DNA of 64,000 nt from Variovorax sp. CAN15 (lineage in GTDB: Bacteria > Pseudomonadota > Gammaproteobacteria > Burkholderiales > Burkholderiaceae_C). Positions 18,831-62,012 of the stretch are shown here, one piece after another (positions within the stretch are counted from its first letter, which is position 1; each line of letters opens with the position of its first letter). The notes under the pieces are model-generated. The model was given only the letters and a program-made list of their open reading frames with translations, was not told where the DNA came from and did no database searches. Location: the NCBI RefSeq assembly GCF_030462475.1, contig NZ_JASMRZ010000003.1:128894-192893 (forward strand), in the 5' to 3' direction. The position numbers and the translations under genes were made by a program.

Positions 18831-19784
18831 TCAAGCGCCGCGCACCAAGGACAAGACCTTGCCCGCATCCAGCGCGCGGGCCTTTTCCTGGATGGCGGGC
18901 AGATACTGCGTCTGCAGACTCTGCCCTTCCTTCACCACGCCCGAGAACGCGTCCTTCAGCATCTGCGTCGAGAGCGTGCGCCCACCCGCGTAGTAGCGTT
19001 TGGCGACGTGGCCCAGCGCGTAGGTCGACGCGAAACTCATCCCCGAACTCACCGCCTGGTTGCCCAGGCCGCGCAGCAGCCCGCCGCCGACTTTGCCGAG
19101 CAAGCCACCGAGCAGCTTGCGTCCTGCCTGCTCCAGGTACTGCGAGGTCAGGCCCACGCCGACGGTCGCCAGGAAATCCTTGATGTGGCCGCTGTCGAGC
19201 TGGTAGCCATAGGCCTGGCCGATGCGGTAGACCAGCTTCATCTGCAGCGGAATGATCGCCATGGTCGAGAGCGTCTCGGGCAGCAGCTCGAGCGCGCCGT
19301 TCAGGATGGAGGCGTTGAGGATCGACTTGTCCAGCTCCGTCGTGTCGGGGCTCTTCGGCGCTGCGGGCATGGATGCCGGCACCGACGACGCTGCCACAGT
19401 GGCAGCCACCGGCACCGCGGCGATCTCTTCCGCCTTCCGCGAGAAAGCGGCCGCCGAAGCGTCCAGGCCCAGCGAGGTGCGCACGTCCGCCAGGAACATC
19501 CGCTCCGCCTCCGACTGCGCGCCGTCGGCATCGCAGACGCACACAGCCATCTCATAGGCGAGCTGCCTCGATTCCATGCTCTTGAGCTCGCCCGCCACCG
19601 AGGCCAGCGAAACCCGCTTCATCAGCACGTCCTGGTAGAGCGTCGGCAGGTTCAGCCCGTCGGCCTGCCACAGGCCCTCCGCGATGCGCTTGATCTCGGC
19701 GCGCTCGCGCTCGTGCTTCTCGCCATCGACGAAGGCGGCCAGCAGGCTCAGGGTAACGATCGACTTTGTTTCAGAAGGTGTCAT
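18831..19784 (-). CDS. TerB-domain protein with Gly-rich hydrophobic C-terminal region
   Basis: A 317-residue protein. Residues 1 to about 115 resemble the TerB/DjlA-like all-helical domain (LLAAFVDGEKHERERAEIKRIAEGL, MAVCVCDADGAQSEAERMFLADVR, with paired acidic residues). The middle is Ala/Pro/Ser-rich. The C-terminal half (ILNGALELLPETLSTMAIIPLQMKLVYRIGQAYGY, GRKLLGGLLGKVGGGLL) resembles DUF697-type membrane-associated regions. A role in envelope or stress response is possible but not known. The ATG at 19784 starts the TerB-like domain; the ORF track start at 19943 would run into the origin-like region and is not supported. It faces away from that region. Confidence 0.72.
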   Translation of the reverse strand: MTPSETKSIVTLSLLAAFVDGEKHERERAEIKRIAEGLWQADGLNLPTLYQDVLMKRVSLASVAGELKSMESRQLAYEMAVCVCDADGAQSEAERMFLADVRTSLGLDASAAAFSRKAEEIAAVPVAATVAASSVPASMPAAPKSPDTTELDKSILNASILNGALELLPETLSTMAIIPLQMKLVYRIGQAYGYQLDSGHIKDFLATVGVGLTSQYLEQAGRKLLGGLLGKVGGGLLRGLGNQAVSSGMSFASTYALGHVAKRYYAGGRTLSTQMLKDAFSGVVKEGQSLQTQYLPAIQEKARALDAGKVLSLVRGA

Positions 19785-19878
19785 GTTCGATATTTCCGCA
19801 ATTTCAATGAGTTGGCGGAGTCGCAGCCGCGGTCCGGAGATTCCGTCAGGCGTTCTCCCCACAAACCTTGGGCAACTC

Positions 19879-19887
19879 TGTGGATAA
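19879..19887 (-). promoter_or_regulatory. DnaA box (perfect)
   Basis: TGTGGATAA, complement of the consensus TTATCCACA, in the origin-like region. Confidence 0.72.
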
Positions 19888-20054
19888 CGTTGGCACTTCC
19901 ATGTAGGGGTTCTGCAAGTTGTTGATTTACAAATGAAATCCATGGATTGCCCAAAATTTCAGCAATGAATTTCTACCGGCAAAAACCGCCTTCGCAGATT
20001 TCTGAAGAGCCGTCAAAGGACAAGTCTGGGGACATTTTTTGAACAAACCATGGT

Positions 20055-20063
20055 TTATCCACA
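20055..20063 (+). promoter_or_regulatory. DnaA box (perfect)
   Basis: TTATCCACA, consensus, opposite in orientation to the box at 19879 and about 110 bp left of the weaker box ATGTCCACA at 20174. Confidence 0.72.
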
Positions 20064-20200
20064 GGCCCGAAGGGTTACCCAATGTTGTCCATGTCGCGGG
20101 TACAAACCGGAAGCACGGCTGCACACAGTGACGGCGGCATGACAAGTGCTTGTCGCATAACGAAAAAAACGTCATGTCCACAGAGGGATGCGACCCTTAT

Positions 20201-20214
20201 CTACTACTACTAAT
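20201..20214 (+). other. DnaA-trio-like repeat
   Basis: CTACTACTACTAAT: four CTA triplets, so the complementary strand reads 3'-GAT-GAT-GAT-GAT-5', the DnaA-trio pattern bound by DnaA as single strand. It is directly followed by AT-rich DNA. Confidence 0.6.
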
Positions 20215-20260
20215 TTGAATAATAAAAACAAGAGATAGGGAACAGGAAAAGCTGCGCCCG

Positions 20261-20282
20261 AAAAAAAAGGCCGCGAACGGCC
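20261..20282 (-). terminator. Leftward intrinsic terminator facing the origin-like region
   Basis: On the minus strand GGCCG-TTCG-CGGCC followed by eight T residues. It would stop transcription running left from the creB side before it enters the origin-like region. No leftward gene ends here, so its purpose is not obvious. Confidence 0.68.
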
Positions 20283-20351
20283 GCGCCGGTCCCGGATGCC
20301 TCGGACGAAACCGGTCCTCCCAGCCTTCCTCCCCCTCGCTAACATTCGCGG

Positions 20352-21143
20352 ATGAGCTTCAAACCCCGGATCCTGATCGCCGAAGACGAGTCGGGCATCG
20401 CCGACACGCTGCAATACGTCCTGAAAAGCGACGGATTCATCCCCGTCTGGTGCGCAACGGCCGAGGAAGCCATCGCCCAGTTCGCGCAGGAGCCGCCGGC
20501 GCTGGCCATCCTGGACATCGGGCTGCCCGATCTCAACGGTTTCGAGCTCTTCAAACGCCTGCAGGCGCTCAATCAGTCCATGGGCGGCCCGGAGGTGCCC
20601 ATGGTGTTCCTGACGGCCCGCAGCGACGAAATAGACCGCGTGGTGGGCCTCGAACTGGGCGCCGACGACTACATTGCCAAGCCCTTTTCTCCACGAGAGC
20701 TCGTCGCCCGGGTACGAACGATCCTGCGGCGCAGCGCCAGAAACGGCTCAGGAGCCCAGCCAGCGGCCGCTGGCGCGAATCACGTGGGGGGGCATCAAAT
20801 ATCCGCGAACGGCGCTCCTGCGGGCTATCAGCCCCCCGCATCGCCCTTCGCGCTGGACACCGAGCGCATGCAGATCCGTTACTACGGACGGCTGCTCGAG
20901 CTATCGCGCTACGAATACGGCTTGCTGAGATTGCTGGTGCAGCGCCCCGGCCGTGTCTTCACACGCGACGAACTGCTCGAACACGTCTGGGACGACTCCA
21001 GCGACAGCTTCGACCGCACCGTCGACGCGCACATCAAGACCTTGCGCGCCAAGCTCAAGGCGATCGCGCCGGACGTGGAGCCGATCCGCACGCTGCGCGG
21101 CACCGGCTACGCACTGAACGAAGAACTGCCATCAAAGGCATGA
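20352..21143 (+). CDS. creB: Response regulator CreB
   Basis: A 263-residue OmpR-family regulator. The receiver domain shows AEDESGIADTLQYVL, phosphoacceptor Asp in LAILDIGLPDLNG, and GADDYIAKPFSPRELVAR; the winged-helix effector ends GTGYALNEE. The sequence and the CreC-like kinase downstream match the E. coli CreBC system, which controls creD and, in related bacteria (BlrAB), beta-lactamase genes through a TTCAC-N6-TTCAC tag. Here the receiver and DNA-binding parts are separated by a longer Gly/Ala/Pro linker of about 40 residues (residues about 130-165). It lies right of the origin-like region, transcribed away from it. Confidence 0.88.
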   Translation: MSFKPRILIAEDESGIADTLQYVLKSDGFIPVWCATAEEAIAQFAQEPPALAILDIGLPDLNGFELFKRLQALNQSMGGPEVPMVFLTARSDEIDRVVGLELGADDYIAKPFSPRELVARVRTILRRSARNGSGAQPAAAGANHVGGHQISANGAPAGYQPPASPFALDTERMQIRYYGRLLELSRYEYGLLRLLVQRPGRVFTRDELLEHVWDDSSDSFDRTVDAHIKTLRAKLKAIAPDVEPIRTLRGTGYALNEELPSKA

Positions 21144-21267: not shown

Positions 21268-22713
21268 TTGACGAGGCGCACCCGGATCTTCATCGGCATC
21301 CTGCTGATCTACACGGCGGGCATCGCCTTCCTGCTCTACCGCGTCGTCTCCGACATCGATCCGCGCTACCGCGAATCCGCCGAGGAATCGCTGGTCGAGA
21401 CCTCGCAGCTCGTGGCCAGCCTGGTCGAGCAGGACGTGATCGCCGGCGCCATCAACACCGCGCGGCTCGAGCCGCTGTTCCGCACGGTCTACGCGCGCGA
21501 GTTCTCGGCGCAGATATACAACCTGCACAAGAGCCGCGTCGAGCTGCGCGTGTACGTCACCGACCGCAACGGCCGCGTGATGTTCGATTCGCTCGGCAGG
21601 CACCTCGGCGCCGACTATTCGAAGTGGAGCGACGTGAGCCGCACGCTTGCCGGCCTGTACGGCGCGCGCACCTCGCGCGACGTCGACGGCGATCCGCGCA
21701 CTTCGGTCATGTACGTGGGCGCCCCGATCCGCTGGAACAACGAGATCGTCGGCATGGTCAGTGTCGGCAAGCCTGTGCAGAGCTTCGGGCAGTTCGTGGA
21801 GGACGCGCGTGGGCGAACCATCTGGGTCGGCGTGGGCTCGGCGCTGGCGCTGCTGCTGCTCACCTTGATCGTCTCGGTCTGGCTGGTACGGCCCTTCGGC
21901 CTGATCCGCGACTACTGGACCTGGGTGCGCGCCCAGCGCAGCCTGAGCCTTTCACGCATGGCAAGGCGCGCGGTCGACGGCGTGCGCACCGGCTTCAGCG
22001 AAATGCGCGACGCGCTCACCGGGCGCAACTACGTGGCCGACTACGTCCAGACCTTCACGCATGAAGTGAAAAGCCCGCTCTCCGCCATCCGCGGCGCGGC
22101 CGAGCTGCTGCAGGAACCGTCGATGCCGCATCCCGAGCGCGAACGCTTCCTGAAGAACATCGAGCGCGAGACCCAGCGCATCCAGGAAATCGTCGACCGC
22201 ATGATGGAGCTCACCGCGCTCGAAACGCGGCGCGCGCTCGATCGCACCGAACCGGTGGCATTGGCCGCGCTGATCGACGACATCGCCACCAGCGCACAGA
22301 CAGCGGCAGCCAAGCGCAACATCAGGCTGCTGGTGAACATTCGCAACGAAGCACGCACCGAAGGCGACCCTTTCCTGCTGCGCCGCGCGATCAGCAACCT
22401 GCTCGACAACGCCATCGATTTTTCGCCGCGTGACAGCGAAGTTCTGCTCACGCTGGAAACGACCTCGAAGCTGGCCCGCGTGAGCGTGCGCGACCACGGC
22501 CCCGGCATTCCGGAGTACGCGCAGGAAAAAGTTTTTGAAAAGTTCTATTCACTCGCCAGGCCGCACAGCCAGAAGAAGAGCACCGGCCTGGGGCTGGCCT
22601 TCGTGAAGGAGATCGCGGCCCTGCACCACGGCCGCATCGACCTGGGTAACGCGTCGCGTGGCGGGGCGGTGGCGACGCTCACGTTGCCGCTGCTGTCTTC
22701 TTCACATCACTGA
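21268..22713 (+). CDS. creC: Sensor histidine kinase CreC
   Basis: A 481-residue inner-membrane sensor kinase. It has an N-terminal membrane segment (IFIGILLIYTAGIAFLLY), a periplasmic sensor of about 160 residues, a second membrane segment (ALALLLLTLIVSVWLV), H box FTHEVKSPLSAIRGAAELL (nearly the E. coli CreC sequence), N box RRAISNLLDNAIDFS, and G boxes DHGPGIP and KKSTGLGLAFV. The start appears to be TTG at 21268; an upstream start is blocked by the repeat element. Its 3' end overlaps the convergent desaturase gene by 12 bp. CreC phosphorylates CreB in response to metabolic or cell-wall cues. Confidence 0.88.
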   Translation: MTRRTRIFIGILLIYTAGIAFLLYRVVSDIDPRYRESAEESLVETSQLVASLVEQDVIAGAINTARLEPLFRTVYAREFSAQIYNLHKSRVELRVYVTDRNGRVMFDSLGRHLGADYSKWSDVSRTLAGLYGARTSRDVDGDPRTSVMYVGAPIRWNNEIVGMVSVGKPVQSFGQFVEDARGRTIWVGVGSALALLLLTLIVSVWLVRPFGLIRDYWTWVRAQRSLSLSRMARRAVDGVRTGFSEMRDALTGRNYVADYVQTFTHEVKSPLSAIRGAAELLQEPSMPHPERERFLKNIERETQRIQEIVDRMMELTALETRRALDRTEPVALAALIDDIATSAQTAAAKRNIRLLVNIRNEARTEGDPFLLRRAISNLLDNAIDFSPRDSEVLLTLETTSKLARVSVRDHGPGIPEYAQEKVFEKFYSLARPHSQKKSTGLGLAFVKEIAALHHGRIDLGNASRGGAVATLTLPLLSSSHH

Positions 22714-46707: not shown

Positions 46708-48162
46708 TCAGAGCCATTTGTCCAGCGGATTGCCGTCGTTGGGCGCGCGCGGCCGCAGGCACGGAAGGAACTGGCCGGAGCCGGGCTCGGCCTGGAACAC
46801 GCCGTCCTGCCACACGACGCGCCCGCGCGAGACGGTCAGGCCGGGCCAGGCGCGCAGCCGCATGCCCTCGTAGGGGGTGTAGTCGGCGTCGTGGTGGAGC
46901 ATGTCGTTGGACAGCAGCTTCCCCTGGCCCTCGGGGAACATGTCCCACACCACGAAGTCGGCGTCGCTGCCCACGGCGATGGTGCCCTTGCGCGGGTACA
47001 GGCCGTACAGGCGCGCCGGGTTCGTGGCGGTGAGCTCGACGAAGCGGTGGATGTCGATGCGCCCCTTGAGCACGCCTTCGCTCATGAGCAGCGGCAGGCG
47101 CGTTTCCACGCCTGGGATGCCGTTGGGGATGCGGTCGAAGGAGGCGTTGTCGCCGGCCACGCGCTTGCCGTCGCTGCCGTTCATGTTGAAGGGCGCATGG
47201 TCGGAAGAGACGATGGTGAAGAGCCCGCTCGACAGCCCGTTCCAGATGAACTGCTGGTTCGCCTTGTCGCGCGGCGGCGGGCTGCAGATGCAGCGCGCGC
47301 CGTGCATCGGGTCGTCGGGGTCGATGCCCAGGTCCTCGGCGCTCAGGAACAGGTATTGCGGGCAGGTCTCGGCGTGGATGGGCAGCCCGCGTCCGCGCGC
47401 CCAGTGGATCTGCTCGACGGCCTCGCGGCCCGAGACGTGGACGATCAGGATGGGCGTGTCGACCAGTTCCGCCAGCGCGATGGCGCGGTGCGTGGCCTCG
47501 CGCTCCACCGCCATCGGCCGCGAGCTGGAGTGGTAGCGCGGCGCGGTGAGGCCTGCGTCGAGCAGCTGCTCGGTGAGCCAGGCGATGCAGTCGCTGTTCT
47601 CGGCGTGGATCATCGTCATCGCGCCGTGTCGGCGGGCGGTGGCCAGCACCTCGATGATCTGGCGGTCGTCCAGCTTCAGGTCGTCGTAGGTCATGTAGAT
47701 CTTGAAGGAGGTGTAGCCCTTCTCGATCAAGGCGGGCAGCTCGCGCTGCGTCACGTCGCGCGTGGCGTCGGCCACGATCAGGTGGAAGGCGTAGTCGATC
47801 ACCGCCTTGCCCTCGGCGCGGCGGTGGTAGTCGTCGACGGCCTCCTGCACGCTGCGGCCCTTCTGCTGCGCGGCGAAGGGCAGCACGGTGGTGGTGCCGC
47901 CGCATGCGGCCGAGCGGGTGCCTGAGAGGAAGTCGTCGGCGAAGCGCGAGCCGTCGCTGGTGGGCTGGTCGAAGTGGCAGTGGCCGTCGACGCCGCCGGG
48001 CGTGACCAGCCGGCCGCGCGCGTCGATCTCGCGCGCGGCGCCGGCGTCGAGCCCCTGCGCGATGGCGCAGATGCGCCCGTCGCGCACGCCGATGTCGGCG
48101 GTGTAGCGGTCGCCGGCGGTGGCGATGTCTGCGTTGCGCAGGATCAGGTCGTAGGTGCTCAT
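46708..48162 (-). CDS. Dihydropyrimidinase/D-hydantoinase
   Basis: A 484-residue amidohydrolase of the cyclic amidase group. Metal ligands are visible in VDGHCHFDQP (two His), the carboxylated Lys in SFKIYMTYDD, His in MIHAENSD and VHVSGREA, and Asp in SSDHAPFN. The length suits dihydropyrimidinase and hydantoinase. It opens cyclic amides such as dihydropyrimidines or 5-substituted hydantoins to N-carbamoyl products. Its position beside an amino-acid transporter and dehydrogenase favours a hydantoin or lactam of an amino acid. Not accompanied by the usual pyrimidine-degradation genes. ATG at 48162. Confidence 0.9.
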   Translation of the reverse strand: MSTYDLILRNADIATAGDRYTADIGVRDGRICAIAQGLDAGAAREIDARGRLVTPGGVDGHCHFDQPTSDGSRFADDFLSGTRSAACGGTTTVLPFAAQQKGRSVQEAVDDYHRRAEGKAVIDYAFHLIVADATRDVTQRELPALIEKGYTSFKIYMTYDDLKLDDRQIIEVLATARRHGAMTMIHAENSDCIAWLTEQLLDAGLTAPRYHSSSRPMAVEREATHRAIALAELVDTPILIVHVSGREAVEQIHWARGRGLPIHAETCPQYLFLSAEDLGIDPDDPMHGARCICSPPPRDKANQQFIWNGLSSGLFTIVSSDHAPFNMNGSDGKRVAGDNASFDRIPNGIPGVETRLPLLMSEGVLKGRIDIHRFVELTATNPARLYGLYPRKGTIAVGSDADFVVWDMFPEGQGKLLSNDMLHHDADYTPYEGMRLRAWPGLTVSRGRVVWQDGVFQAEPGSGQFLPCLRPRAPNDGNPLDKWL

Positions 48163-59316: not shown

Positions 59317-60423
59317 CTAGATACGCATCGGCATCACGACGTACTTGAAGGATGCGTTCTCGGGGATGGTTAACAAGGCCGAACTGTTGGAGTCGGCCAG
59401 ATCCAGCTTGACCATGTCCTGGTCCATGTTCGACAGCGCGTCGATCAGGTAGGTCACGTTGAAGCCGATTTCGATCGTGTCGCCACCGTAGTCGATGTCG
59501 AGTTCGTCCTGGGCTTCTTCCTGCTCGGCGTTGTTCGATGCGATGCGCAGCGTGCCCGGCTCGATGTTCAGGCGCACGCCCTTGAACTTCTCGCTGGTCA
59601 GGATTGCGGTGCGCTGCAGACTGGCCAAGAGCGGCGCGCGGCCCAGGGTGACGGTGTTCTTGTGGTTCTTGGGAATCACGCGGTTGTAGTCGGGGAACTT
59701 GCCTTCGACCAGCTTGGTGACGAACTCCATGCCGCCGAAGCTGAACTTGGCCTGGTTGTTCGCGAACTGCATCTCGATGGCGCCTTCGGCGTCGGACAAG
59801 AGGCGCTGCATTTCGAGCACGGTCTTGCGCGGCAGGATCACTTCCTGGCGCGGCACCTCGACGTCGAGCGTGGCCGACGAGAAGGCCAGGCGGTGGCCGT
59901 CGGTGGCCACCAGGCTCAGCTGCTTGCCTTCGGCAACGAACAGGATGCCGTTCAGGTAGTAGCGGATGTCGTGCACGGCCATCGCGAACGAGACCTGCGA
60001 GAGCAGGTCCTTCAGCGTCTTCTGCGGCACGCTGAACACGGGGCCGAAGTTGGCGGCTTCCTGCACCAGCGGGAAGTCTTCGGCGGGCAGCGACTGCAGC
60101 GTGAAGCGGCTCTTGCCGCCCTTGAGTACCAGCTTGCTGGCGCTGGATTCGAGGCTCACGGTCTGGTCGGCCGGCATGGTGCGCAGGATGTCGATCAGCT
60201 TGCGCGCGCCGATGGTGGTGGTGAAGCTGCCTTCGTCGCCACCGAGCTCGGCGGTGGTGCGGATCTGGATCTCGAGGTCGCTGGTGGTCAGCTGCAACTG
60301 GCCGCCGGTCTTGCGGATCAGCACGTTCGCCAGGATCGGCAAGGTGTGACGCCGCTCCACGATGCCCGCCACCGACTGTAGCGCGGCGAGGACCTTGTCC
60401 TGTGTTGCCTTCAAAACGATCAT
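59317..60423 (-). CDS. dnaN: DNA polymerase III beta subunit (sliding clamp)
   Basis: A 368-residue sliding clamp. It begins MIVLKATQDKVLAALQSVAGIVERRHTLPILANVLI and ends SFKYVVMPMRI, both conserved at the clamp ends; the hydrophobic cleft segments are recognisable (SSALLTIPENASFKYVVMPMRI). The dimer forms three domains per subunit and tethers Pol III to DNA. The ATG at 60423 follows a purine-rich GAGGAAGAAG. Located between dnaA and gyrB, the standard order. Confidence 0.97.
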   Translation of the reverse strand: MIVLKATQDKVLAALQSVAGIVERRHTLPILANVLIRKTGGQLQLTTSDLEIQIRTTAELGGDEGSFTTTIGARKLIDILRTMPADQTVSLESSASKLVLKGGKSRFTLQSLPAEDFPLVQEAANFGPVFSVPQKTLKDLLSQVSFAMAVHDIRYYLNGILFVAEGKQLSLVATDGHRLAFSSATLDVEVPRQEVILPRKTVLEMQRLLSDAEGAIEMQFANNQAKFSFGGMEFVTKLVEGKFPDYNRVIPKNHKNTVTLGRAPLLASLQRTAILTSEKFKGVRLNIEPGTLRIASNNAEQEEAQDELDIDYGGDTIEIGFNVTYLIDALSNMDQDMVKLDLADSNSSALLTIPENASFKYVVMPMRI

Positions 60424-60523
60424 GTCTTCTTCCTCTTCCTATCTCTTTGAATCAGCATGTAAGGTGCCATTCTCCGCTGTCGCGGGGGGCATCCCCGATG
60501 ACATCCGGCTTCTTCCCGACTGA

Positions 60524-61953: not shown

Positions 61954-61962
61954 TGTGGATAT
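61954..61962 (-). promoter_or_regulatory. DnaA box (one mismatch) in the dnaA leader
   Basis: TGTGGATAT, one mismatch to the complement of TTATCCACA, 51 bp upstream of the dnaA start. Likely autoregulatory site. Confidence 0.55.
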
Positions 61963-62003
61963 TCTCTGCTGGAAGGCGCCCGGCATTCTAACTTGTCAAA
62001 ACC

Positions 62004-62012
62004 TTATCCACA
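62004..62012 (+). promoter_or_regulatory. DnaA box (perfect) upstream of dnaA
   Basis: TTATCCACA in the divergent dnaA-rpmH spacer, about 100 bp before dnaA. The spacer has no AT-rich unwinding-like stretch, so this reads as a dnaA regulatory site rather than an origin. Confidence 0.7.

Follow-up and report, generated by a model that had tools for sequence, protein, structure and literature searches.

Where chromosome replication starts in this Variovorax is the question raised by a 567-bp gap (19785-20351) between a terB-like gene, whose start codon lies at 19784 on the minus strand, and creB, which starts at 20352. The position of the origin is usually thought to be fixed within a genus, and many database chromosomes have been rotated to dnaA as the presumed origin. 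The window, by which we mean the whole stretch of 64,000 nucleotides that was analysed (G000:C117:128894-192893), belongs to a 321.7-kb contig of a 6.9-Mb draft assembly in 193 contigs, and its placement in Variovorax follows from the gene order rpmH/dnaA/dnaN/gyrB and from close matches to named loci. We put at roughly 0.87 the probability that the chromosome of this bacterium has its replication origin (oriC) in the terB-creB gap, use of the site being judged from sequence comparison.

The elements reported in the first-pass annotation were all found in the gap (Table 1). Two perfect DnaA boxes of the sequence TTATCCACA stand in opposite orientation at 19879-19887 (-) and 20055-20063 (+), and a box with two mismatches, ATGTCCACA, is present at 20174-20182. 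It is followed by a GC-rich spacer (20183-20196), by CTACTACTACTAAT at 20201-20214 and by DNA that is AT-rich to about 20245. The sequence TTATNCACA occurs four times in the window compared to an expectation of 0.16, and none of 100 shuffles reached four. There are 16 perfect DnaA boxes in the 6.9-Mb assembly; the densest box cluster of the 321.7-kb contig is the terB-creB pair, 176 bp apart, followed by the pair in the dnaA promoter. The instability of the trio and AT-rich stretch reaches a z of about 5.9 over 40 bp and about 5.6 over 60 bp within the 321.7-kb contig, and in a relative with the module at dnaA-dnaN (G005) the same segment is likewise the least stable in 400 kb. Along the alignment the module runs in the order GTCAAAGGACAACTCTGGGGA, box TT(A/G)TCCACAG, GTTGT, GAAGC...CACAG, CAAGT..TTGTC, box TGTCCACAG, spacer and CCCTTATCTACTACTACTAATTTGAATAA. 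The 28 aligned sequences were selected by the trio motif, and copies found by profile retain the trios too.

Table 1. Features of the putative origin region, of the dnaA region and of one set of additional copies (window positions unless a locus is named).
Feature	Position	Strand	Remarks
terB-like gene, left flank	18831..19784	-	PF05099, 32 bits vs cut-off 24.4
Conserved block to the left, holding the perfect DnaA box 19879-19887 (-)	19857..19890	-	kept in terB-creB group; outside core; shorter match in dnaA-dnaN copies
Core of the putative oriC module, ~231 bp, unit common to all sites and genera	20012..20245	+	28-sequence alignment A1; profile R1
Conserved block GTCAAAGGACAAGTCTGGGGA, left end of core	20012..20032	+	alignment
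Perfect DnaA box TTATCCACA	20055..20063	+	TTGTCCACA in dnaA-dnaN Variovorax copies
Weaker DnaA box ATGTCCACA, two mismatches, adjoins trios	20174..20182	+	TCCACAG invariant in alignment
Spacer GAGGGATGCGACCCTTAT	20183..20200	+	18 bp up to the four trios; 14 bp with TTA at 20197 counted in
Predicted AT-rich unwinding element	20198..20245	+	lowest duplex stability of the 321.7-kb contig over 40 and 60 bp
Four DnaA-trios, top strand CTACTACTACTA (3'-GAT-5' on other strand)	20201..20212	+	invariant in 28 sequences
Terminator-like hairpin, T-run toward module, between module and creB	20269..20282	-	3 in region vs 1.6 expected in shuffles (weak); A-run partly conserved
creB response regulator, right flank	20352..21143	+	NCBIfam CreB equivalog, 305 bits
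creC sensor kinase	21268..22713	+	NCBIfam CreC equivalog, 591 bits
dnaN	59317..60423	-	TIGR00663
dnaA-dnaN gap, apparently vacated, no box, no trio	60424..60523	-	103 bp between aligned coding regions
dnaA	60524..61903	-	TIGR00362, 557 bits
DnaA box pair in the dnaA promoter, spaced 50 bp	61954..62012	.	one-mismatch box 61954, perfect box 62004; no trio module
Module copies at the locus ~300 kb upstream of dnaA	L296:5892-6122, L081:6739, L133:7198, L299:5993, L119:3487, L300:5575		

Origins that combine a DnaA box with DnaA-trios, the BUS origins, are known, for example, from B. subtilis and H. pylori, with a usual spacer of 13 bp (PMC8287927). The gap has the identical order of box, GC-rich spacer, at least three trios and AT-rich DNA: the box beside the trios (ATGTCCACA at 20174) stays within two mismatches, the trios are four consecutive CTA repeats where at least three are called for, and the adjacent AT-rich DNA is easily unwound. 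It differs from the BUS origins in its single weak box by the trios, in its location away from dnaA and in its spacer of 18 bp (or 14, with TTA at 20197 as a trio), compared to the usual 13 bp; the 18 bp are slightly over the limit of 0-16 bp applied in PMC8287927, a point against the origin reading. Judging from this anatomy, DnaA would bind the boxes at 19879, 20055 and 20174, a DnaA filament would grow along the trio strand (20201-20212), and melting of the AT-rich DNA as far as about 20245 would allow helicase loading and initiation at terB-creB.

Two properties are expected of an oriC of the Comamonadaceae, homology to the dnaA-dnaN module of related genera and presence in essentially every genome, and the module has both. 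Among 111 genomes of the family, drawn from 110 genera, profile R1 matched 108, and among 102 Variovorax it matched 99, the window copy scoring 168.9 bits; of the three Variovorax left over, two have incomplete assemblies (73-88%), and the third, in 110 contigs, yielded no intact dnaN either. An exact scan of GTDB genomes for the box-trio pattern returned 115 stretches, nearly all from Comamonadaceae. The dnaA-dnaN gap is filled by the module in Polaromonas, Rhodoferax, Limnohabitans, Curvibacter, Caenimonas, Ramlibacter and part of Variovorax (dnaA-class genomes, with a gap of about 271 bp), and this lends support to the earlier claim of an origin-type element away from dnaA. Compared to the dnaA-dnaN oriC of Polaromonas, Limnohabitans, Ramlibacter and some Variovorax, the window module is homologous and shares blocks and order, but it lies at terB-creB about 41 kb from dnaA and has an extra left box, and the dnaA-dnaN gap here is empty, with a duplex more stable than that of the module. 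The pattern is exclusive: the dnaA-dnaN gap either holds the module at a length of about 271 bp or, in the 20 terB-creB genomes, measures 90-124 bp and lacks it. Across these 20 genomes the box/trio order of 19785-20351 is fully kept and the module blocks are largely invariant, whereas much of the remaining gap is not. The suspicion of a lineage trait also gained ground, as the module is at terB-creB in 20/20 Variovorax of one well-sampled group. Separately, a stretch of Prochlorococcus AG-449-P16 (L102:2065) has the same box-spacer-CTACTACTACTAA pattern and adjoins a distant dnaN homologue, which is likely an independent occurrence.

The first-pass annotation had also described the dnaA-rpmH spacer as carrying two boxes and no trio module, which was borne out by a one-mismatch box at 61954 and a perfect box at 62004. 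It had named that spacer as a frequent place of oriC; the ancestral site is probably the dnaA-dnaN gap instead. In a tree of dnaN and dnaA, the dnaA-dnaN state was found in every sampled outgroup and is therefore probably ancestral, the outgroups having been chosen among loci that carry the module in that gap. The terB-creB genomes fall into one clade with 94% support that also holds three dnaA-dnaN members (G021, RYN_564 and a MAG). It follows that there were either repeated moves of the module to creB or returns to dnaA-dnaN, a choice for which a tree of two genes is too small. Other sites were also found: between merR and creB (G029), beyond gyrB (G023, dw_308 and Ramlibacter aquaticus, probably joined by G030) and, some 37 kb away from dnaA, at a two-component locus (Sphag1AA, BIN18 and YR216). 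In one genome, G016, one copy occupies dnaA-dnaN and another, 30 kb off, the two-component locus, and three others (G412, G397 and G401) have copy pairs of the same spacing and orientation and so probably carry both as well. Such genomes look like intermediates of the move. Because they exist, the module most likely gained a second copy at a new intergenic position before the one at dnaA-dnaN disappeared. Taken at the level of sequence, the terB-creB site is strongly supported as the putative oriC of the family, relocated about 40 kb from dnaA, and as a lineage trait of the clade of V. paradoxus type, to which the window belongs.

The number of modules varies: 63 of the 102 Variovorax have exactly one, and 36 have two to five. 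A subset of the terB-creB strains has a second complete module some 300 kb upstream of dnaA, in a syntenic position that adjoins an E1-dehydrogenase gene. Its box, trio and AT parts are complete, and these copies are 74-90% identical to each other, which is above their identity to the primary copies. Several dnaA-class Variovorax (L294:5271, L295:5127 and L303:6131) have another, next to a malic enzyme/PTA gene and some 34 kb upstream of dnaA, with the trios one base nearer to the box and again with more similarity within the set than to the primary copies. As they are complete and closer to each other than to the primary copies, the extra modules look like old, maintained paralogues and not assembly noise. 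In Variovorax sp. UMC13 (G001, L287:3654-6420) at least three tandem copies lie between terB and creB. In two further genomes (L297 and L298, from G014 C6 and G009 C14) copies are found beside a TetR gene and apparent efflux genes, on contigs distinct from that of the primary copy, and the G014 copy is also near a T6SS VgrG gene. As more than one copy is present in 36 of the 102 genomes, a given copy need not be the active origin. A bolder reading is that about a third of Variovorax, with two or more complete and separately conserved oriC modules from less than 1 kb to about 460 kb apart, would in some cases fire more than one of them, making a natural multi-origin chromosome and a genus with origins that arise, relocate and disappear; we consider this unlikely.

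The window's contig has exactly two parS sites, 1.1 kb apart (G000:C117:127817 and 128886, at or just left of the window start), an arrangement identical in 16/16 Variovorax genomes searched. In the genomes examined the pair is about 10-50 kb from the module, on the far side of creB as seen from dnaA; this position is compatible with both candidate sites, and the proximity to the module counts for the terB-creB origin. The GC skew, proposed as a test in the first-pass annotation, is near zero in Variovorax, and plain GC, fourfold-site and TA skew (run on G000, G027, G031 and G005) cannot separate sites 40 kb apart, as the signal is weak and gene-strand and local effects dominate. In G005, a local cumulative GC-skew maximum (C1:46867) lies less than 100 bp from parS (46787-46802) together with a change in fourfold-site skew, which may be a coincidence. 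The KOPS-like, FtsK-type octamer GGGNAGGG has opposite polarity on the two arms of G027, with a terminus near 3.3 Mb. Its polarity switch is 100-220 kb upstream of dnaA on G027:C1, at neither dnaA nor the module. Since the octamer density near the origin is about that of the background of the reversed motif and gives little power, we did not weigh the switch for or against any site, and it is possibly noise.

The extra copies bear on the alternative that the module is a DnaA-titrating or reactivating site, like datA or DARS of E. coli, with the true origin elsewhere near dnaA. Copies beyond the first in 36/102 Variovorax, some of them far from dnaA and conserved as an orthologous set of their own, would suit such a role, and so would an octamer polarity switch 100-220 kb away. 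However, datA and DARS are box clusters that have no trio/unwinding element, whereas the module has a trio/AT element and holds the weakest duplex of the contig. Moreover, the 321.7-kb contig showed no further box cluster comparable to it, and the module is single in 63/102 Variovorax, in many of those at dnaA-dnaN or terB-creB. We leave this alternative a small chance.

A split origin has a slimmer chance; the module would be one of its lobes, and the dnaA promoter boxes (61954 and 62004) or others would take part, so that replication would not simply start at terB-creB. Every genome checked retains the dnaA promoter pair, which other Variovorax have regardless of the module site, and in many further genomes of the family the module occurs twice, at distances from a few hundred bp to tens of kb. 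On the other hand, the promoter pair is 40 kb off, has no trios and has a stronger duplex, and we know of no precedent for box pairs 40 kb apart acting jointly; the pair probably serves dnaA autoregulation. A remnant of an integrated plasmid or phage origin, to which extra copies in variable DNA such as that near the VgrG gene of G014 might point, is hardly credible, as 108/111 family genomes carry the module, many genera at dnaA-dnaN, its neighbours in the window are a terB-like gene and creBC rather than rep or integrase genes, and a search of 72,556 plasmid records with the module gave no match.

Candidates suggested by origins in other bacteria were rejected. The oriC of E. coli lies beside mnmG/gidA, about 40 kb from dnaA, at a stable position. 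In the window, mnmG is about 18.6 kb from the terB-creB module and has just upstream of it a lone perfect box (1525-1533; mnmG start 1441, minus strand) in a stronger duplex; the relative G027 has no perfect box upstream of mnmG. The gene hemE, an origin neighbour in some bacteria, is about 0.8 Mb from dnaA in G027. The putative terB-creB origin resembles that of E. coli in lying tens of kb from dnaA, but its box and unwinding-element layout is different, and the move in Variovorax would be recent and within the genus. The cyanobacterium Synechococcus lividus PCC 6715 is a single reported case of an oriC away from dnaA/dnaN in its group (PMC6323995). The likeness is an origin off dnaA/dnaN in one member of a group; in contrast, Variovorax has a whole clade, several alternative sites and variation in copy number. 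Putative double origins in DoriC have been predicted from box counts, neighbour genes and skew, and had not been shown as of 2015 (Gao 2015, PMC4403523). They too involve more than one origin-like region per chromosome, but the copies in Variovorax are homologous full modules with orthologous sets of their own.

No description of the oriC position of Variovorax was found in the open-access literature. The DnaA-box/DnaA-trio type of origin is known; what is new is the relocation of a traceable homologous module within a genus, together with conserved extra copies. The latter raise the question of whether a second origin is used, silenced or exploited in some chromosomes. It seems that the position of the origin can change within one genus, and as the duplication, coexistence and loss of one 231-bp module can be traced among close relatives, origin movement becomes testable in a culturable genus.
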